Positions 29,941 through 55,339 of a DNA stretch of 64,000 nt are shown in pieces. A program made the translations under genes and the position numbers. Source of the stretch: Otariodibacter oris. Its GTDB lineage: Bacteria > Pseudomonadota > Gammaproteobacteria > Enterobacterales > Pasteurellaceae. The notes beneath the pieces are model-generated. The model did no database searches and had not been told where the DNA came from. It saw nothing but the letters and a program-made list of their open reading frames with translations. The stretch spans positions 511,262-575,261 of the forward strand of contig NZ_CP016604.1 in the NCBI RefSeq assembly GCF_009684715.1. Reading direction: 5' to 3'. Positions within the stretch are counted from its first letter, which is position 1. The number at the start of each line of letters is the position of its first letter.

Positions 29941-29962
29941 GATAAAAATAGGTAGTATTTTT

Positions 29963-30000
29963 AAAAACAGGCGAAAGATTATATCTTCGCCTGTTTTTTA
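29963..30000 (+). terminator. Intrinsic terminator after the nitroreductase
   Basis: AAACAGGCGAA (29965-29975) pairs with TTCGCCTGTTT (29986-29996), followed by TTTT. The inner GAT/ATC pairs extend the stem past one bulged A. Confidence 0.85.
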
Positions 30001-30105
30001 TTAGCACAGTTCTAGCTTACTAAGATAATTTGTAGGAATTAAAACTCATCAGAACAACTTTGATTTACGCATCAAATCACTAAACAACACTTGTCAGCTT
30101 GTTTA

Positions 30106-30151
30106 TTGCTCAATTTTAGATTTTGAGCAATATGTCACTCAGTTATATAAT
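30106..30151 (+). promoter_or_regulatory. mcrBC promoter with inverted repeat over the -35 box
   Basis: TTGAGC (30123-30128), a 17-base spacer and a perfect TATAAT (30146-30151) form a good promoter. TTGCTCAA (30106-30113) and TTGAGCAA (30123-30130) are perfect inverted copies 9 bases apart, and the right arm covers the -35 hexamer. A dimeric repressor bound there would block transcription. The regulator is unknown. The ATG of mcrB is about 67 bases beyond the expected start point. Confidence 0.65.
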
Positions 30152-30224
30152 GAGGTCCTTTTATCAGAGATATTATGCAAAATTTATATAACTCCCCCCA
30201 GAGATGAAAATAGATAGGTGAAGT

Positions 30225-32606
30225 ATGAGTGTAAATAATGAACAAGGCTATACATGGATACCTACATTTAAAGCTATCGCAGATTGGCTAGTAGATTATA
30301 AGGATAGACAGGAAGAGCTAATCGATATTTTGATTGAAATTGGTGTTGGTAATGGACTTAAAGATGTTGATAGTGATGGTAAAAAGAGCACATTAAAAGA
30401 AATAGATCCTTTTACATTCATTGCTTTAATTTTAAAATTTGGAGATGAAAAGAGAAAAACATTTATTAGTAATCTAATTAAGAAAATGGGTATACAGATC
30501 CCCATACCTAAGGATTTTTATGGTGTACCGAAATCTCAACAAGTAAATGCCTGGCTATTTCCTTCAAAAGATCAACGTTCTGATGATTCAATACCATTAC
30601 TTTGGAAGTTTTTTGAGCAAATAAGAAATGGTAAGATTGATGATGATACCTTCGATAAAGTTCTTAAAATCAAAAAAGTGGGTTTCGATAAACTGACTCA
30701 AAATATCTTCTATATTAATCCTTCTAAGTATTTACCCATAGACTCTCAAACCAGACCTTTTTTAATCTCCCTAAGGCTAAATGTCCCCAAGAACAATAAA
30801 AATGAAAAACTTGCTAATTATCAACGATGTCTAGATGAAGTTAGAATCAAAACTAACAATAAGCCATTTTGGGAAATATCCTATGAAGCATGGATTGAAA
30901 ACCAAAATAGTAAAAAATACAAAAAACAAGTTCAGTCACCACAGGTAAACACTCAAATGAAACAAAATTCAAAATCAAATAATACCACAACAATACCTCT
31001 AAATCGCATCTTATACGGACCTCCTGGCACGGGTAAAACCTATAAAACGACGGAACTTGCCGTAGAATGTGTAGATCCTAATTGGTACGCTAAGCTAACA
31101 CAGCAATATCCTGAACCAGAACAGTATAGTGTAGAGAGAAGAAATAAGTTGAAAGTTAGGTATGATGAGCTAACTGCTGAGGGGCGTATTGCTTTTACAA
31201 CGTTTCATCAAAGTTTTGCTTATGAGGACTTTATAGAGGGTATCCGAGCAGAAATTGATGAAGAAACTAAGCAAGTTTATTATAGTGTAGAAGATGGGGT
31301 TTTTAAAAGGTTAGCAAATGCATCTCTTAATGAAACAATGAGGGAGCGTTTAGTCGACTTATCTAAAGAACCCAATATTTGGAAAATATCCTTAGGTAGA
31401 AGAGAGGAAGCTGAGTTTCGTAAAGCATGTATAGAGGCTGGAGAAGCAAGGATTGGCTGGAAAGAAGTAGGCGATCTAAATATTGATATTAATGACAAAA
31501 CAGAGGCTGAAAAAAAGTATTTTTATGATCAGAGTTCACAGAACCAAAATTCAATTACTAACTTTCATGAAAATATTCAAATCGGGGATATAATTGTTTG
31601 CTTACAAACGAGAAAATCTATAGAGGCAGTAGGTATAGTTACCTCTGACTACTTTTATGACAAGAATAGCATCGATAAATTTTCTTGTTACCCACATGTT
31701 CGTAAAGTTAATTGGTTTTTAAAAAATGTATCAATAGATATATATAGTTTAAACCATAACAAACTATTAGAAATTCCGACATGTGTACCCTTAAAACATT
31801 TAAAATGGAGTTCATTATTAGATGAGCTGGAAAGACAAGATTACTTTAAAGATAGATCTGCTCTAGATACCTCTAGACCGAGGGAAAATAATTACATGTT
31901 AATTATAGATGAAATCAACCGAGGTAATATTTCCCGTATCTTTGGTGAGCTAATTACATTGCTTGAACCAGATAAGAGAAAAGGTGGCAGTGATGCACGT
32001 GAAGTAACGCTTCCTTATTCTAAGGAGAAATTTTCGGTACCATCTAACCTTTATATTTTGGGTACAATGAATACCGCAGATAAATCATTGACTCAATTAG
32101 ACCTTGCTTTGCGTCGACGTTTTGAATTTAGTGAATTATTGCCTAATCCTCGCTTATTAGAAGGTATTACTGTGCATGGTGTGGATGTATCTGAACTGTT
32201 ATCGACTATAAATGCCCGTATTGAAGTCTTATTAGATAGAGAACATACAATAGGTCACTCATACTTTTGGACATTAAAAAATTTAGAAAAAGAAGAACAG
32301 AAAGAAAAGGAACTAGCTAATATTTTTGAAAAACGCATTATTCCTTTATTACAAGAGTACTTCTTTTCAGATTGGGAGCGTATCGGTTGGGTGTTAAATG
32401 ATTCTAATAAACAAGCTGATGAGAAATTTATACAAACTGAGAGTTTATCGCCAAAACTAAGTGAGCTGTTTGGTAGTGATATTGAGGGCTTAGTGAACGA
32501 CCGCCGTTATAAAATTAATGAACGTGCTTTTTCTAAGCCTGAATCGTATCAAAAAATATTGATGCCTCACACCCAACTACCTGAATCATCGGATAGTCAA
32601 GAATGA
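30225..32606 (+). CDS. mcrB: McrB-like AAA+ GTPase with inserted EVE-like domain
   Basis: A 793-residue protein, the NTPase half of a McrBC-type modification-dependent restriction system. The N-terminal region (1 to about 230) is an all-alpha-looking module (WLVDYKDRQEELIDIL; DPFTFIALILKF) found in McrB-like proteins and probably used for recognition. The AAA+ core has Walker A GPPGTGKT at 265-272, Walker B MLIIDEINRG at 558-567, the McrB signature MNTADKS at 615-621 and RRR at 630-632. About 290 residues separate Walker A and B because residues about 385-527 (WKISLGRREEAEF, IQIGDIIVCLQ) form an EVE/PUA-like insert expected to read modified bases. AGGTGA precedes the ATG, and mcrC overlaps by 4 bases. 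Confidence 0.88.
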   Translation: MSVNNEQGYTWIPTFKAIADWLVDYKDRQEELIDILIEIGVGNGLKDVDSDGKKSTLKEIDPFTFIALILKFGDEKRKTFISNLIKKMGIQIPIPKDFYGVPKSQQVNAWLFPSKDQRSDDSIPLLWKFFEQIRNGKIDDDTFDKVLKIKKVGFDKLTQNIFYINPSKYLPIDSQTRPFLISLRLNVPKNNKNEKLANYQRCLDEVRIKTNNKPFWEISYEAWIENQNSKKYKKQVQSPQVNTQMKQNSKSNNTTTIPLNRILYGPPGTGKTYKTTELAVECVDPNWYAKLTQQYPEPEQYSVERRNKLKVRYDELTAEGRIAFTTFHQSFAYEDFIEGIRAEIDEETKQVYYSVEDGVFKRLANASLNETMRERLVDLSKEPNIWKISLGRREEAEFRKACIEAGEARIGWKEVGDLNIDINDKTEAEKKYFYDQSSQNQNSITNFHENIQIGDIIVCLQTRKSIEAVGIVTSDYFYDKNSIDKFSCYPHVRKVNWFLKNVSIDIYSLNHNKLLEIPTCVPLKHLKWSSLLDELERQDYFKDRSALDTSRPRENNYMLIIDEINRGNISRIFGELITLLEPDKRKGGSDAREVTLPYSKEKFSVPSNLYILGTMNTADKSLTQLDLALRRRFEFSELLPNPRLLEGITVHGVDVSELLSTINARIEVLLDREHTIGHSYFWTLKNLEKEEQKEKELANIFEKRIIPLLQEYFFSDWERIGWVLNDSNKQADEKFIQTESLSPKLSELFGSDIEGLVNDRRYKINERAFSKPESYQKILMPHTQLPESSDSQE

Positions 32607-33889
32607 TACAGGTAGAAGAATATGCGGAGTTAACCACAAACAGAGATGTTGTGACTAACTCAAAGTTAGCCATCATAAAAAAAGAAACATTTGATTGGTT
32701 AGTACAGTTAAGCGAACGTGAAGGGTACGGACGCTTTATTATTTATAAGCGCCCGCAATGGCTTCAATTGCAGTCCTATGTTGGCTATTTACAAAGCCCT
32801 CATGGAGAAGCTATTGAAGTACTACCGAAGACAGGATTAGGTTCTAATAATCCATCATTGGCAAGACAAGTTTTGTGTAAAATGCTGTGTTCATCAATGG
32901 GGATCTCTCCAAAAGAAATGCATTCGGCAGATTTACAACGTATGAAGTTACCTATCCATGAATGGATATTCAATCAGTTTTTACAAGCATTGAATGATTT
33001 AGTCGCATCAGGGTTACGTTTTGATTACCTGAGAATTGCAGAAGAAAGCAATTTTATTCGTGGTCAACTTGATATTGCTAAATAGCAACGACAACCTATT
33101 GGGCAGGCTCATCGTTTTCATATTCGCCATGATGTTTATCATCCAGATCGCCTAGAAAATAGACTAATTAAAACAGCCCTTAATTATGTGCAAAGGCTTT
33201 GTAAAACTTCGAATAACTGGCGATTGGCAAATGAGCTGTCGCATATTCTTACTCCCATTCACAGTCTAATTAATCCGTTGATAGATTTCCCTAAATGGGA
33301 GGATAGCAAAATATTACAATCGTATCGTACGATAAAGCCTTGGTGTAAGCTTATATTAGAGCAAATGAATCCTAATTTTCAAAAGGGTATGCATCAAGGT
33401 ATTGCCTTATTATTTCCTATGGAAACCCTTTTTGAGAAGCACGTTGCTTATTGTTTAAACGCTAAGATTAAAGCGCCTTTTAATTTGGTATCACAAGCAA
33501 AGAACCAATACATGATTTATAGTCGACATACCAAAAATCACTCTCAAAAACGATTTGCCTTAAAGCCTGATTTATTGATTAAAAACTCAAGATTAAATGT
33601 ATGTGTTATGGATACTAAATGGAAGCTTTTAGACTCTGGTATTAATAAAGACTTTGGTATCAGTCAATCTGATATTTATCAAATGTTTGCCTATGGACAT
33701 AAGTATCTAAATGCACAGGGTGATATGATGCTTATTTATCCTAAGCATACTAATTTTACTCGTCCCCTAGAATGTTTTTATTTCAATGATGAATTAAGAT
33801 TGTGGGTAGTACCATTTTGCATAGAACAAGATGAGTTGGTAATTGGAGATTGGCAGAGCCTTTTTTTAAGTTTAGGTATTAACATTTAG
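32603..33889 (+). pseudogene. mcrC: McrC-like nuclease subunit interrupted by an in-frame TAG
   Basis: The reading frame is continuous over 428 codons except for one TAG at 33083-33085 (codon 161). Before the stop the protein reads RGQLDIAK; after it the same frame continues QRQPIGQAHRFHIRHDVYH without a gap, so a single CAG to TAG change is the simplest explanation. The N-terminal part resembles the McrC beta-barrel domain. The distal part carries the PD-(D/E)xK nuclease motif (KPDLLIKN then VMDTKWK). As written, the nuclease domain is lost unless the stop is read through or a GTG at 33188 restarts translation. The ATG overlaps the mcrB stop. Confidence 0.85.
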
Positions 33890-33922
33890 GGGATGTTTTG
33901 GTTATTTATCAAATATAATAAA

Positions 33923-33984
33923 TTTAACTATCAATATTTAATTTTTAATAGTTAAAGTTTATTGATTTGATAGTTTCACAATGG
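33923..33984 (+). promoter_or_regulatory. Possible OxyR half-sites upstream of katA
   Basis: ATAGTT occurs at 33948 and again at 33970, exactly 22 bases apart, the spacing between dyads of the OxyR site ATAGntnnnanCTAT-N7-repeat. The first dyad ends TTAT where CTAT is expected; the second right arm is poor. A TTTAACTAT/ATAGTTAAA inverted repeat (33923-33956) overlaps. OxyR control of katA is known in relatives; this site is inferred. Confidence 0.4.
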
Positions 33985-35593: not shown

Positions 35594-38500
35594 TTAAAAT
35601 TTATATTCTAATCTTCCTCCGAACTGGGTTTGTTTCAATTTAGCATCAGAAATATCATGTCTATGCTCAACTTTTAAACCTAAAGATAATTGCTCAGTTA
35701 TTGTAAATTCGCTATCTATTTTCATTAAGAATGCATCACCTTGTTTTCCTGTCATGAAGTCAGAATGTTGTCTTCCATCAGAGATGAGTACATCTTTTCT
35801 ATCGAGATTGCTATTTTCATAAAATGCGCCAAGATTAAGTGCAACAATTTCATTTTTCCAACCTACATTAGCTCCCATATATTGACTGAATACATTGTAT
35901 GGCTTCATTGATATATTCCAATCATTACTATGGTCATTTACTTTAGTTTTGATTCTTTGATAATTTATTCCAATTGTTGGTGTTATAGTAATATCATTTA
36001 ACGGTATTGCATAACCAACTTCACTACCAATTTGGAATTGTTTTGCATTAATACTTGCTATATTTCTTTGTTCAGCAGTGGAAACCTTACCATGATGAAT
36101 GTGGTATCCAATATGAGAATTAAGAATAATATTATTCCATCTATTGTGTAGCCCTGCTAAGAACGATGTAGATTTGTAGCGAGTTTCACTATAACCATCA
36201 GGTGAGCGAGGAGTAACATCTTGTTTGCTAAATCCAATTCCAGCATGCAATTCCATATTTTCTGTTATTGGAGTAAACCCACCAATTAATGTACTGCTTT
36301 GTGTAGCCTTATAACCATACCCATAATTGTTGAAGCTCACATCAGATGTATATCTAGAATTACCATTTTGTTGATTAATATAAAAGCCTTTCTTATTTAT
36401 AGACCAGATATTATCCATAAATTGTCTGCGAATTGTATCTCCTTGATTCAGGATAGCGTTATTTGCCACAAGATAAGATGGAACTTTTTGATTAATAGCA
36501 ACACGATATTCTTGTCCTGCTAAATTGAGTGCATCTTCTGTAGATAATGTAGGTTTGTCTTCTGTTGAAATAGAAGAGCCTGTGTCAGTTGCTACTTTGA
36601 TTATTGGGTCTGGGTTTTCTCCATTTTCATTAACAAGTAAGGTTTGTAAACGATAATCAAAGAATCTAGCATTTGGATCATCAAGTTTACTTTGAGCAGT
36701 ATTTGATACAGATTTGTCCACACCAACAAGAGTATATTGGAATAGATCTGTTTCATCTTTATTTGAATTAAGTCTTTTACCTAAAACAAATTGCTCAGCC
36801 GTTGAGTCTCCAAGTACCTGTATTAATGAAATACCCTCATCAGGATCATATTTACCATTATTATTGGTGTCGGAATTGGACTGTCCTTCTCCTAGGAATT
36901 GAACATTTACCGGTATTGCTTTTCTTGAAACAACATCGCCATTAATTAATACTTGATCATGTTCCCAAGTAGAAATATCTTCATTTGCATTATTTACTCG
37001 TAGTAATAAATTCGCACCTCCATTGAGTACATTAGCAAATTTCATCACTCTACTGCCAAAATTGCCTTCATTTTGTGCAATTCCTGGTTGAATAACACTA
37101 TTATTTTTCCATGTGCTCTCTGACGTAATAATTGCATTTCCCCCTAAAATTGAATTTTCATCAATTAATAATGCACCGTTGGATAAACTTCCATTTAATT
37201 CCACTGCTCCTGATTGAATGTGAGTTTGTCCAGAATGCGATAATGCACCAGTTAGTTTAAGTAGACCATCACCTGATTTGATTAATTCACCTGTACCCGA
37301 TGAGTTTATATTCAACTGGGTGAGTGAGTTACTATCAGATTGCACACGAATTTTTCCTGTTACATCACTTGATTTAATCGTTGTATTTGTACCACTATCA
37401 AGTATAAAGTTGGCATCCTTTGCAATTTGAAGATCATTAATTAGATGTTCAGTATTAGAAGCATAAGTGATAGACCCAGATTTAATATCAACAACATTAA
37501 GAATAGAGTTACCATTTAAAGTAAAATTAGAACTATGATCTTCTGGTGTATAGATAAAATCTAAATTTCCCGATTCACTTCCTAAATTACCAGTTAGACT
37601 ATTTTCACCATTGAGTGTATAAGTTAATTCAGATGGTTTAGTATTATCTTCATTGATAATATTACCTAAAATATCTGAACTTCTAAGACCTGTCGCTGCT
37701 TCTGAATCAAGAGATAAAGTAATTGAATTGCCATTTAAATCTAATGTACCATTATTTAAGTTTATATTACTTAAATTAACCTGATCAGGTGAGCCTAATC
37801 TGACTTTACCATCTTGTTCTACTGTAACAGAATTAAATGCGGATAATTTCCCATTATTATCAGCTTGTTGGTTTAATGTGGCAGTTCCTTCTTTGACGAC
37901 AAGATTTGCTAAATTCTCTCCTTTCCCAACTTTAACCATCTCTCCATCACCAATTTTATAGAAAGTTTCTGCAATATTAGAATCTAAAGAGAACTCTTTT
38001 TTATCTTCATTATCAGCTCTTATATCTCTATAAATAAGGTTATCGTGCCATACAAGTTCCTGTAAATTCAACCGAACATAGTTAATAGAAGACGCACTCT
38101 CTTCGTAAAGTAATCCAATATCTCCATTAGGTAATTCAGTTAAACTATTGTAGGCATAGCTACCCGTAGTAATAGTCGTATTAAATTTCCATTCAATGGT
38201 ACCATCATCTTGAACCTCACCTAGCCAAACTTTCCCATTACTTCGATTTGAGGCGTGAGGATTAGCAAAAATAACGATTTCTTTACCATCGATTTTTTTT
38301 GAATATTTGATAACAGATAGTTGAGAGTATGGTTCTAATAAAACATCATCAATTTGTCTGGTATTTTGCCAAGTATATCCGCCATCTTTACTGGTAGAAA
38401 TTACAACATAATTATCCATTAGATTTCTAGAGAACATTTTTAGATCGCCATTATCTAACTCGATTACTTGTGACTCAGTCATTTGTTTATTTCGAGTATT

Positions 38501-40090
38501 TAATTCTCTAGTTCCACCATTTTGATACTCCCATCGATCTATTGGCGATTCTCCACGTGTCCAAGTTTTACCGCCATCATTACTAATTATGACCGCAGGA
38601 GATTGTGAATTTAATCCGCCTACATTATTTGTATAATAAACAGGGACGACTAAATTGCCATTTTTGAGTTGAATACCATTACCTGGGCCAGTACCTAAAA
38701 ATTGCATCCAATCTGCTTTTACTTGTGGGGTAATATCAACAGGACTAGACCATGTTTTTCCATTATCATCACTATGAATCATCCATAGATAACTAGTTAT
38801 TTTTGCCATTAATGGCGCACTCTGATTTCCTTCATTTTGAGTGTTTAAAAATATATTACCAACCTTGTTGTCACCTCGATATAAATCACCAAGATCTTGA
38901 TAAGATTTGCTTATATCCCCCTCAACAACTACTTTATAGTCTGTTGGTTGATTACTTTCATCATAGACAATTCCATCATCTCTAACAGTATATTGATTAT
39001 TGTTTGCATCTGTTAGTAAACGATAGTTTTTACCATCTATATTCTTATAGCCAGTCCCTTCGCTATTAGTTGTTAAACCAAATAGTCCTCGCATTTCTGG
39101 GAACATATCTACAATCATAAATATACGCCCTGTATTTTTATCTTGTACTATTTGAGGGTCAATTAAAAATGCAGAATTTTGATTACCATAAGGTTGTGAG
39201 ATTAAATCAATTAAAACTTGATCATCTTCCCATGTTTTTCCTCCATCCAAACTTCGACGAATAACGGTATCAATATTGCCCCAGTCGTTTGGATGTTGAT
39301 GACGCTTATCAATAGCGGCGATAACCACATTATCTTTTGTTGTAAATAGAGACGGGATTCTGTAATTATTAGCCCCATTCTGACCAGATATAAATAAAGG
39401 CGTAGCTGTCGTTTTATATGTATTAAAGTATTGTTTCTTTCCTAAAGAATAGCTTTGGAATTCTGTTAAATATTTATGCTTTTCTGCAACTTCTTCTGGA
39501 GTTAGTACATTTTTATCAAAATCAGCATAAAATATATCACCATTAAAACGCATGGTATTAAAGCCACCAACGGTAGAACGTCTTGTTTCCCCTAAAAATG
39601 CATTGGATATATTAGGTATATCTGTAAAAAAGTTAGAATTATTATTAGACAATAATTTTTCACCATCAATATACATCTCAACCTTATTATTGGTTTTATC
39701 AAACGTGTAAGTAATATTTCTATATTCATTTGATGATGTTGGGACATTTGTACGAATAACTTCGCTACCTCCATTTCTAATTTCAATTCCGTAGGTGTCT
39801 TTCCCAATAGGATTATTAACATATGAATAAAAACTTAGATATTTAGTACTGGAATCAGGATCAGCAACTCCTAGAAATGTGCCAAAGTCACTACCATTTT
39901 TAAATCTAAATGTGATTGAGCCATTTTCTAGATTTAGTGTGTTATGGTTTGTAAATTGTGAAGTAAGATCTAAAGGCTTAAATAAGCCTTTAGTACTTGA
40001 ATATTCAAAAATATAATTATCACTTTCTATTGAAAAAGTATAATTTGTTGTGAATGATGTAATTAACATAGCCAATATTGTTTTTTTCAT
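35594..40090 (-). CDS. Autotransporter sialidase (GH33 with N-terminal lectin domain)
   Basis: A 1498-residue surface enzyme releasing sialic acid from host glycans. Signal peptide about 1-20; lectin-like CBM40-type domain about 25-205; six-bladed GH33 catalytic domain about 215-680 with YRIPS at 243-247 and four Asp boxes (SLDGGKTW 280, SDDNGKTW 440, SNDGGKTW 503, SKDGGYTW 567). The arginine triad is probably R244, R555 and R616, and the nucleophile tyrosine lies in SYAYNSLTEL near 645. A beta-helix-like passenger with GELIKSGDGLLKLTG follows. The last about 270 residues form an autotransporter barrel ending GGRLEYKF with the terminal Phe needed for insertion. It resembles NanB of Pasteurella multocida in plan. 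No other nan genes are nearby. Confidence 0.92.
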   Translation of the reverse strand: MKKTILAMLITSFTTNYTFSIESDNYIFEYSSTKGLFKPLDLTSQFTNHNTLNLENGSITFRFKNGSDFGTFLGVADPDSSTKYLSFYSYVNNPIGKDTYGIEIRNGGSEVIRTNVPTSSNEYRNITYTFDKTNNKVEMYIDGEKLLSNNNSNFFTDIPNISNAFLGETRRSTVGGFNTMRFNGDIFYADFDKNVLTPEEVAEKHKYLTEFQSYSLGKKQYFNTYKTTATPLFISGQNGANNYRIPSLFTTKDNVVIAAIDKRHQHPNDWGNIDTVIRRSLDGGKTWEDDQVLIDLISQPYGNQNSAFLIDPQIVQDKNTGRIFMIVDMFPEMRGLFGLTTNSEGTGYKNIDGKNYRLLTDANNNQYTVRDDGIVYDESNQPTDYKVVVEGDISKSYQDLGDLYRGDNKVGNIFLNTQNEGNQSAPLMAKITSYLWMIHSDDNGKTWSSPVDITPQVKADWMQFLGTGPGNGIQLKNGNLVVPVYYTNNVGGLNSQSPAVIISNDGGKTWTRGESPIDRWEYQNGGTRELNTRNKQMTESQVIELDNGDLKMFSRNLMDNYVVISTSKDGGYTWQNTRQIDDVLLEPYSQLSVIKYSKKIDGKEIVIFANPHASNRSNGKVWLGEVQDDGTIEWKFNTTITTGSYAYNSLTELPNGDIGLLYEESASSINYVRLNLQELVWHDNLIYRDIRADNEDKKEFSLDSNIAETFYKIGDGEMVKVGKGENLANLVVKEGTATLNQQADNNGKLSAFNSVTVEQDGKVRLGSPDQVNLSNINLNNGTLDLNGNSITLSLDSEAATGLRSSDILGNIINEDNTKPSELTYTLNGENSLTGNLGSESGNLDFIYTPEDHSSNFTLNGNSILNVVDIKSGSITYASNTEHLINDLQIAKDANFILDSGTNTTIKSSDVTGKIRVQSDSNSLTQLNINSSGTGELIKSGDGLLKLTGALSHSGQTHIQSGAVELNGSLSNGALLIDENSILGGNAIITSESTWKNNSVIQPGIAQNEGNFGSRVMKFANVLNGGANLLLRVNNANEDISTWEHDQVLINGDVVSRKAIPVNVQFLGEGQSNSDTNNNGKYDPDEGISLIQVLGDSTAEQFVLGKRLNSNKDETDLFQYTLVGVDKSVSNTAQSKLDDPNARFFDYRLQTLLVNENGENPDPIIKVATDTGSSISTEDKPTLSTEDALNLAGQEYRVAINQKVPSYLVANNAILNQGDTIRRQFMDNIWSINKKGFYINQQNGNSRYTSDVSFNNYGYGYKATQSSTLIGGFTPITENMELHAGIGFSKQDVTPRSPDGYSETRYKSTSFLAGLHNRWNNIILNSHIGYHIHHGKVSTAEQRNIASINAKQFQIGSEVGYAIPLNDITITPTIGINYQRIKTKVNDHSNDWNISMKPYNVFSQYMGANVGWKNEIVALNLGAFYENSNLDRKDVLISDGRQHSDFMTGKQGDAFLMKIDSEFTITEQLSLGLKVEHRHDISDAKLKQTQFGGRLEYKF

Positions 40091-52733: not shown

Positions 52734-53528
52734 TTACCAACCTTTAATCATAGAACCCTTAAAGACTTCATCTGCTTTTTGGAATACTTCATCTGTTTGA
52801 TAAGCTTTGATGAAGTTTTTAATATCTTCGCTATCTTTATTATCTTCACGGGCTACAATTAAATTTACGTAAGGTGAATCTTTATCTTCGACAAAGATAC
52901 CATCTGTTGCAGGTGTTAAGCCAATATGTCCAGCATAGATTGTATTAATGATCGCAAATGTTACATCATCTAAGGTACGAGGAAGTAATTCAGCATTCAC
53001 TTCTTGAATGGTTAAATTTTTAGGATTCTCAATAATATCAGCTGTTGTTGAAAGAAGGTTAGTACTATCTTGTAGTTTAATTAAACCTTGTTTCTCTAAT
53101 AAAATTAACGCACGACCTAAATTAGTTGGATCATTAGGCACAGCAATGGTATCGCCATCTTTTACTTCGGCCGCTGATTTGATCTTATTTGAGTAAGCGG
53201 CAATAGGAAAGACAAAAGTATTTGCCAAAGGTGTTAATTTATATCCTTTGTCTGCAATTTGTTTATCTAAAAATGGTTTGTGTTGGAATGCATTGATATC
53301 TAAATCACCATTATTTAATGCTTCATTTGGTGTTGAGAAATCGGTAAATCCAACAAGTTCTACATCAAGATTGTATCTTTCTTTAGCTAGTTTTGCTGCA
53401 ACTTCTGCAACTTCTTGTTCTGGACCAGACATGGTGCCGACTTTCAATGCTTTAGGCGCATCATTGCAAGCTGTTAATATAAATGCCGAGAGTACAGCAG
53501 TAGCTGTAAGTAATTTTTTTAAATTCAT
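52734..53528 (-). CDS. metQ: MetQ-family methionine-binding lipoprotein, distal copy
   Basis: A 264-residue substrate-binding lipoprotein of the NLPA/MetQ family. Signal peptide with lipobox LTAC (Cys21), then NDAPKALKVGTMSGPEQE. Ligand-domain hallmarks: ALNNGDLDINAFQHKPFLDK, AVPNDPTNLGRAL and SPYVNLIVAREDNKD. It is the third and most distal of three successive copies behind metNI. Highly similar to the middle copy, including the same MIKGW ending, so they arose by recent duplication. In Mannheimia the equivalents are PlpABC outer-surface lipoproteins. Confidence 0.93.
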   Translation of the reverse strand: MNLKKLLTATAVLSAFILTACNDAPKALKVGTMSGPEQEVAEVAAKLAKERYNLDVELVGFTDFSTPNEALNNGDLDINAFQHKPFLDKQIADKGYKLTPLANTFVFPIAAYSNKIKSAAEVKDGDTIAVPNDPTNLGRALILLEKQGLIKLQDSTNLLSTTADIIENPKNLTIQEVNAELLPRTLDDVTFAIINTIYAGHIGLTPATDGIFVEDKDSPYVNLIVAREDNKDSEDIKNFIKAYQTDEVFQKADEVFKGSMIKGW

Positions 53529-53559
53529 AATTATTCCTTTTTATATATCTATTGTGTAT

Positions 53560-53611
53560 AGCGGTTACTTTTGTGTGAAATTTCGCAAAATTAGAGTCTA
53601 ATGTAACCGCT
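53560..53611 (-). terminator. Imperfect hairpin between the distal and middle metQ copies
   Basis: AGCGGTTAC (53560-53568) pairs exactly with GTAACCGCT (53603-53611) around a 34-base loop; the right arm is part of an uptake sequence (53606-53614). It may trim transcription between copies. Confidence 0.45.
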
Positions 53612-53625
53612 TGTTATAAAGTTTA

Positions 53626-54420
53626 TTACCAACCTTTAATCATCGAGCCTTTAAAGACTTCATTTGCTTTTTCGAAGACTTCATCTGTTTGGTAAGATTT
53701 AATAAAGTCTTTAATTGCTTCATTATCTTTATTATCTTCACGAGATACGATCAGATTGACATAAGGGGAGTCTTTATCTTCAACAAATAACCCATCTTTA
53801 GTTGGTGTTAATCCAATCTGCCCCGCATATCCCGTATTAATAACAGCAAATGCCACATCATCTAAGGTCCGAGGCAGTAATTGAGCTTCAATCTCTTGAA
53901 TATCTAAATTTTTAGGGTTTTCAACAATATTTACCGTTGTAGCAAGAAGATTAGTGCTGTCATCTAATTTAATTAAGCCCTGTTTTTCTAGTAAAAGTAA
54001 AGAACGACCTAAATTTGTTGGATCATTTGGTAATGCAATCGTATCGCCATCTTTTAATTCATCAATTGATTTAATTTTGTTTGAATAAGCGGCAATAGGG
54101 AAAACAAAGGTATTTGCTAAAGGCGTTAATTTATAGCCTTTATCTTCAATTTGTTTATCTAAATACGGTTTATGTTGGAATGCATTGATATCTAAATCAC
54201 CATTATTTAATGCTTCATTAGGTGTTGCATAATCGGTAAAAAGCACGATCTCCACATCACGATTGTATTTTTCTTTTGCTATTTTTGCTGCAACTTCTAT
54301 GACTTCATGTTCAGGACCTGACATCGCACCAACTTTGAGTGGTTTTGCTACATCGTTACAAGCCGTTAATATAAATGCAGAGATAACAGCAGTGGCGGTG
54401 AGTAATTTTTTGAAATTCAT
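53626..54420 (-). CDS. metQ: MetQ-family methionine-binding lipoprotein, middle copy
   Basis: A 264-residue lipoprotein colinear with the distal copy. Signal peptide MNFKKLLTATAVISAFI with lipobox LTAC (Cys21); ALNNGDLDINAFQHKPYLDK, ALPNDPTNLGRSL and YVNLIVSREDNKDNE are conserved. Differences from the distal copy are concentrated in residues 21-70 and around the binding-pocket strands (VNTGYAGQ here, INTIYAGH there), which might tune ligand choice (L-Met, D-Met or a peptide). Flanked on both sides by hairpins built on the AGCGGTTAC stem. Confidence 0.93.
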   Translation of the reverse strand: MNFKKLLTATAVISAFILTACNDVAKPLKVGAMSGPEHEVIEVAAKIAKEKYNRDVEIVLFTDYATPNEALNNGDLDINAFQHKPYLDKQIEDKGYKLTPLANTFVFPIAAYSNKIKSIDELKDGDTIALPNDPTNLGRSLLLLEKQGLIKLDDSTNLLATTVNIVENPKNLDIQEIEAQLLPRTLDDVAFAVINTGYAGQIGLTPTKDGLFVEDKDSPYVNLIVSREDNKDNEAIKDFIKSYQTDEVFEKANEVFKGSMIKGW

Positions 54421-54468
54421 ATCTATTCCTTTTATATCTTCCTTTTTTACTACTGGTGAGGTAGATAT

Positions 54469-54520
54469 AGCGGTTACTTCTTGATAAGAATTTGCAAAAT
54501 TCTTATCTAATGTAACCGCT
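54469..54520 (-). terminator. Long hairpin between the middle and proximal metQ copies
   Basis: AGCGGTTAC (54469-54477) pairs with GTAACCGCT (54512-54520). Inside, GATAAGAATTT (54483-54493) pairs with AAATTCTTATC (54497-54507). The right arm overlaps an uptake sequence (54515-54523). This is a stronger structure than the hairpin after the middle copy. Confidence 0.6.
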
Positions 54521-54535
54521 TGTCATAGCCAGTAA

Positions 54536-55339
54536 TTACCAGCCTTTTACTACACCACCCTCAAAATATTTTAGCGCTTCTTGATAGACTTCTTCAGATT
54601 GGAATGCTTTAACGAAGTCTTTAATTGCTGGATCATCTTTATTGTCTTCACGGCTTACAACAAGATTTACATATGGTGATTCTTTTGATTCAACAAAGAT
54701 CCCATCTTTCTCTGGGGATAAACCTACTTGCCCTGCATAAGTATTATTGATAATCGCTAAATCGACATCATCTAAAGTACGAGGTAGTAATGAAGAATCA
54801 ACTTCTTGAATTTCGATATTTTTCGGATTTTCAACAATATCAAGTGGTGTTGCTAACAAATTAGAAGAATCTTTTAGTTTAATAACGCCTTGTTTTTCTA
54901 GTAGGATGAGTGAACGTCCTAAATTACTTGGGCTATTAGGTACAGCAACAATTGCTCCTTCTTGTAGTTCAGATACATTCTTGATTTTCTTTGAGTAACC
55001 AGCAATTGGGAACACAAAAGTATTGCCTATAATCGCTAGTTTATAACCTCTATGTTTTACTTCATCATCCATATATGGTTTGTGTTGAAATGCATTTGCA
55101 TCTAATTCACCTGTACTGAGTGCTTGGTTTGGTCCTGTATATTCAGTGAATTCAACAAGCTTAACATCAAGGTTAAATTTTTCTTTTGCTAATAGTGCAG
55201 CCACTTCGGTTACCTGTGCTTCTGGTCCTGACATTACCCCTACAGTAATTTGACGAGCTTCATCTGCTGCTTGAGCGTTATAACCAGTTAATGCTAATGC
55301 AGAAACTACTGCAACTTTGAGTGTTTGTTTTAAGTTCAT
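54536..55339 (-). CDS. metQ: MetQ-family binding protein lacking the lipobox cysteine, metI-proximal copy
   Basis: A 267-residue paralogue and the first after metI. The signal peptide ends ALALTGYNAQAADEARQ. Where the other copies have LTAC, this one has LTGY (codon TAT), so lipidation is not possible, but the AQA-A site suits signal peptidase I. The mature protein keeps SGPEAQVTEVAALLAKEKF, AFQHKPYMDDEVKHRGYKL and SPYVNLVVSREDNKDDP. It is therefore predicted to be a soluble periplasmic binding protein delivering ligand to MetNI. It is more divergent than the other two copies. Confidence 0.92.
   Translation of the reverse strand: MNLKQTLKVAVVSALALTGYNAQAADEARQITVGVMSGPEAQVTEVAALLAKEKFNLDVKLVEFTEYTGPNQALSTGELDANAFQHKPYMDDEVKHRGYKLAIIGNTFVFPIAGYSKKIKNVSELQEGAIVAVPNSPSNLGRSLILLEKQGVIKLKDSSNLLATPLDIVENPKNIEIQEVDSSLLPRTLDDVDLAIINNTYAGQVGLSPEKDGIFVESKESPYVNLVVSREDNKDDPAIKDFVKAFQSEEVYQEALKYFEGGVVKGW

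Follow-up and report, generated by a model that had tools for sequence, protein, structure and literature searches.

The window, that is, the whole 64,000-nucleotide stretch of DNA that was analysed, carries an mcrBC gene pair whose mcrC frame is interrupted by an in-frame amber codon. The features of the locus are as follows.

29948..33924 (no strand assigned): probably acquired segment holding the mcrBC pair, delimited by blastn of its flanks against the sister species
30225..32606 (+): mcrB, gene for the GTP-dependent AAA+ motor, 793 aa, uninterrupted (ORF; Pfam AAA_5; sequence match to McrB structures 6ut3/6hz4)
31374..31754 (+): stretch inserted into the GTPase domain of McrB at residues about 384-510 (PADLOC PDC-S02 profiles, E 5e-12 to 1e-5)
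32603..33085 (+): 5' part of mcrC, encoding the scaffold and the first part of the finger domain; 160 codons, then the premature TAG (mapped on Thermococcus gammatolerans McrC)
33083..33085 (+): in-frame amber TAG, codon 161, at contig position 544344-544346 (translation; Gln column in 17 of 22 relatives)
33086..33889 (+): remainder of mcrC, encoding the rest of the finger domain with K236 and the PD-(D/E)xK nuclease domain with D323, D337 and K339; 267 codons and a TAG
33188..33889 (+): mechanically called ORF of 233 aa with a GTG start, proposed as a restart and not regarded as a separate gene

Direct translation of 32603-33889 (+) gives a complete McrC frame of 429 triplets, in which the TAG at codon 161 is the sole internal stop and a second TAG closes the frame at its natural end. 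This agrees with the original prediction, which had described a frame of 428 codons intact except at 33083-33085, and the frame bears no other disabling change. It had also been proposed that both sides of the stop belong to one McrC, with the PD-(D/E)xK motif beyond the stop. The Pfam McrBC profile PF10117 is indeed matched in two consecutive stretches, positions 1-102 before the amber codon (E=1e-25) and 106-318 after it (E=3e-63), so that coverage continues over the stop, and D323, D337 and K339 all lie downstream. The 267 codons that stay open beyond the stop, together with the conserved catalytic residues that they encode, are far beyond chance.

The start of mcrC overlaps the end of mcrB by 4 bases (ATGA). 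As had been stated from the sequence alone, mcrB itself is intact. Its product has the Walker A motif GPPGTGKT, DEINRGN and NTADKS of an McrB-type AAA+ GTPase, and it matches NCBIfam PRK11331 with a score below the cut-off of that model. Directly 3' of mcrB lies a frame for a finger and PD-(D/E)xK McrC, as expected of McrBC, although this frame is interrupted by the TAG of codon 161 (33083-33085), for which no suppressor tRNA was found. The locus is therefore McrBC by descent and not an intact system.

The insert of the McrB GTPase domain, about 125 residues long, is placed between the Walker A and Walker B parts and is possibly an EVE-like reader of modified bases. McrB GTPase domains with inserts, and also EVE fusions, are on record (PMC11090510). 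The N-terminal region of McrB (30225-30720) aligns with those of Psychrobacter piscatorii and Psychrobacter sp. Cmf 22.2. Residues 1-164, which precede residue 165, gave no alignment to P. frigidicola, which suggests an exchange of specificity domains among otherwise similar systems.

Genomes of the same order yielded 4 intact homologues of the mcrC gene (39-41% identity), and scanning of species genomes yielded 18 loci. The gene was aligned with 22 relatives, the second mcrC of this genome among them. The relatives' mcrC genes are single uninterrupted ORFs, with one exception that is clipped by a contig end. The closest are from Psychrobacter, which are intact and about 60-65% identical (60-64% over the downstream part), and from a Kangiella metagenome genome (55%). 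D323, D337 and K339 are conserved in all 22 relatives, and the column of K236 holds R or K in all 22. At the column of codon 161, none of the 22 has a stop; 17 have Gln (CAA or CAG), 4 have His and 1 has Ser, and Gln is found in all 4 closest relatives. It is therefore almost certain that the ancestral codon specified glutamine, from which a single transition leads to amber, and the comparison bears out the origin that had been proposed from the flanking residues.

A profile search of solved structures with McrC matched McrC of T. gammatolerans (6ut5) and of E. coli (6hz4). In the profile alignment to the former, the amber column aligns with Q188. In T. gammatolerans McrC, the finger domain spans residues 99-288 and the endonuclease domain residues 299-458, and Arg263 enters the McrB active site and stimulates GTP hydrolysis (PMC7680126). 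By homology, the amber codon of the window thus lies inside the finger domain, ahead of the GTPase-activating residue and of the whole nuclease domain; K236, the equivalent of that residue, and D323, D337 and K339 are all 3' of the stop. The cut does not fall on any domain boundary. Translation of mcrC would end after 160 residues, within the finger domain that enters the McrB ring. To judge from the aligned structure, the truncated product would retain the scaffold and some of the finger while lacking both the residue that stimulates the McrB GTPase and the nuclease domain, which would leave the system without activity in the strain. Production of McrB may continue.

These features suggest that the break in mcrC is most likely an ordinary loss of function, and more precisely that the acquired McrBC system of the sequenced strain has very probably been inactivated by a recent change of a glutamine codon to a nonsense codon. 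The original prediction had left five explanations unranked. Among these, the fresh loss of the nuclease is the one that gains support, from the 22 stop-free relatives, from the lack of further damage and from where the stop falls in the fold; suppression by a tRNA and restart at GTG 33188 are not supported. As for the age of the loss, protein identity to the nearest relative (L058) is 0.67 before the stop and 0.65 after it. Such similar values indicate that selection was acting on the downstream part until recently, and nothing in them points to long decay. A further stop would arise from about 5% of random substitutions in the mcrC frame. If 1 indel per 10 substitutions is assumed, the probability that no second disabling change has occurred falls from 0.14 at 1% neutral divergence to 0.02 at 2%; when nonsense changes alone are counted, it is 0.5 at 1% and 0.25 at 2%, so the bound is a soft one. 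Neutral decay past about 1-2% is therefore unlikely under that indel rate, and the loss is probably recent.

The main rival to a recent nonsense mutation is that mcrC is intact and its TAG an error of sequencing or assembly. The break is a one-base change in a frame that is otherwise undamaged, as such an error would be, and the TAG is known from one strain: this mcrC is the single copy of its kind in the genome, and the base at 33083-33085 is known from one assembly. That assembly consists of one contig with an estimated completeness of 100%, and no evident break is seen in the remaining long frames of the window, as judged from the gene layout and not gene by gene. In finished single-contig genomes, substitution errors are rare compared with indel errors, which also counts against a wrong base call. 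We consider such an error unlikely and the amber codon probably real.

It is less likely still that the amber codon is usefully read through, by a suppressor tRNA or in a leaky context, with low-dose full-length McrC serving as a regulatory device. The codon after the TAG is CAA, which had been pointed out as a leaky context in some other systems, and the residue put in at UAG by mistranslation is Gln, which suits the mcrC site (PMC9481147). In E. coli, read-through can be strongly raised by stress in some contexts, in the order TGA > TAG > TAA (PMC11126739). Measured levels at UAG are nevertheless low, about 0.005-0.02% in published reporters, with about 0.01% in P. putida and 1 in 20,000 in P. 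aeruginosa, and E. coli UAG read-through is 500-fold under the 12% of UGA (PMC9481147).

As regards suppression by a tRNA, a search of the whole genome gave 52 tRNA candidates with anticodons called by ARAGORN, none of which has a CUA anticodon; 28 of 178 first-look candidates were unscored and no His tRNA was found, so the list is incomplete. A CUA anticodon loop with a T-loop after it was also sought in two pattern scans, which hit 7 places; the only tRNA among these is the gene for Arg-UCU. The glutamine tRNAs that were found have the UUG anticodon only, which needs an additional non-canonical pair to read UAG (PMC9481147). Release factor RF1 is intact in the genome. TAG terminates at least 7 other genes of the window besides the two mcrC frames, so the genetic code is the standard one. 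Taken together, the missing CUA tRNA, the intact RF1 and the ordinary use of TAG as a terminator make recoding or suppression unlikely, and with them the tRNA option raised earlier. A stop shared with relatives, as expected of a read-through gene, occurs in 0 of 22, which argues against a conserved recoding. Trace read-through could yield a few full-length McrC molecules. That a glutamine tRNA reads a tolerated amber codon at a low, condition-dependent level, keeping a harmful nuclease at a trace dose that goes up under stress, is a slightly more improbable form of this idea.

The least credible proposal is a restart at GTG 33188, yielding a nuclease split into two fragments or leaving the N-terminal fragment alone to regulate McrB: a 233-codon ORF with the nuclease domain does start 102 bases past the stop, but no Shine-Dalgarno sequence is visible ahead of it, the relatives have single ORFs and none has a split mcrC, the cut inside the finger domain leaves about 35 finger residues (161-195) out of both fragments, the GTG product would be a headless fragment, and the N-terminal one, without the GTPase-activating residue, would have no activator role by the known mechanism.

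The inactivating nonsense mutation, if real, struck a segment that was probably gained from outside. In the sister species (G001), the nitroreductase and catalase genes adjoin and mcrBC is absent; by blastn the flanks are 89-90% identical, and the gap between them is about 75 bp there versus about 4 kb here. No other copy of this mcrC was found in the family among 140 genomes (one per species), and no relative of it in the phage, plasmid and viral collections. Its absence from the sister species, its lone occurrence among the 140 genomes and the position of its nearest relatives outside the family indicate that the segment was probably acquired horizontally. No transposase and no clear target duplication were seen at the edges of the segment. 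The same absence from the sister species and from the family genomes is as expected of a dispensable acquired system, and the pair is best read as an acquired, dispensable type IV (modification-dependent) restriction system.

Elsewhere in the window, positions 35594-40090 (-) encode a sialidase-like protein of 1498 aa with BNR repeats, whose C-terminal end resembles an autotransporter barrel. This region is skipped when the sister species is compared by blastn, so the sialidase-like gene also looks gained or lost between the two species. Three consecutive paralogues resembling MetQ/NlpA-type lipoproteins are encoded at 52734-55339 (-), beside ABC transporter genes.

A second McrBC-like locus lies near 1.84 Mb of the genome (G000:C1 about 1.839-1.842 Mb; L088:5131-7521). 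Its mcrC is uninterrupted, encodes 346 aa and is of the E. coli type, scoring 337.4 bits with NCBIfam against a cut-off of 338, and its GTPase core has 344 aa. A small ORF lies upstream of the GTPase gene and overlaps it by ATGA; this ORF could be an N-terminal part of McrB that is encoded separately or has been shifted out of frame. The genome presents one case of the probable loss of an acquired restriction system, in which the nuclease is broken, the motor gene is uninterrupted and a second mcrBC-like locus is present elsewhere. An uninterrupted mcrB considered alone could imply a working system, which calls for caution in the annotation of defence systems.

The systems of P. frigidicola, P. 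piscatorii, Psychrobacter sp. Cmf 22.2 and the Kangiella metagenome genome likewise have mcrB beside mcrC. Compared with the window, their mcrC is 52-69% identical in either half and their mcrB 46-54% over the main matched stretch, and the P. frigidicola operon has the same ATGA overlap between mcrB and mcrC; in all of them, however, mcrC is uninterrupted. The McrC proteins of T. gammatolerans and E. coli K-12 are remote homologues of the one in the window, and of the three the window gene alone is interrupted. For T. gammatolerans McrBC (6ut5, 6ut7, 6ut8), the profile match extends across most of McrC. For E. coli K-12 McrBC (6hz4, 6ut6), it is confined to the finger and nuclease regions of McrC, and E. 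coli McrC, unlike that of the window, has no N-terminal scaffold. The catalytic D, D and K are common to all three proteins, and Lys157 of E. coli McrC has the role of K236. Our searches of the literature on mcrC genes broken by a nonsense mutation found nothing directly relevant. Acquired restriction genes inactivated by nonsense mutations form a general class, whose pattern the mcrC of the window shares, in that one change disables an acquired gene with no other damage; no difference in kind from that class was seen.
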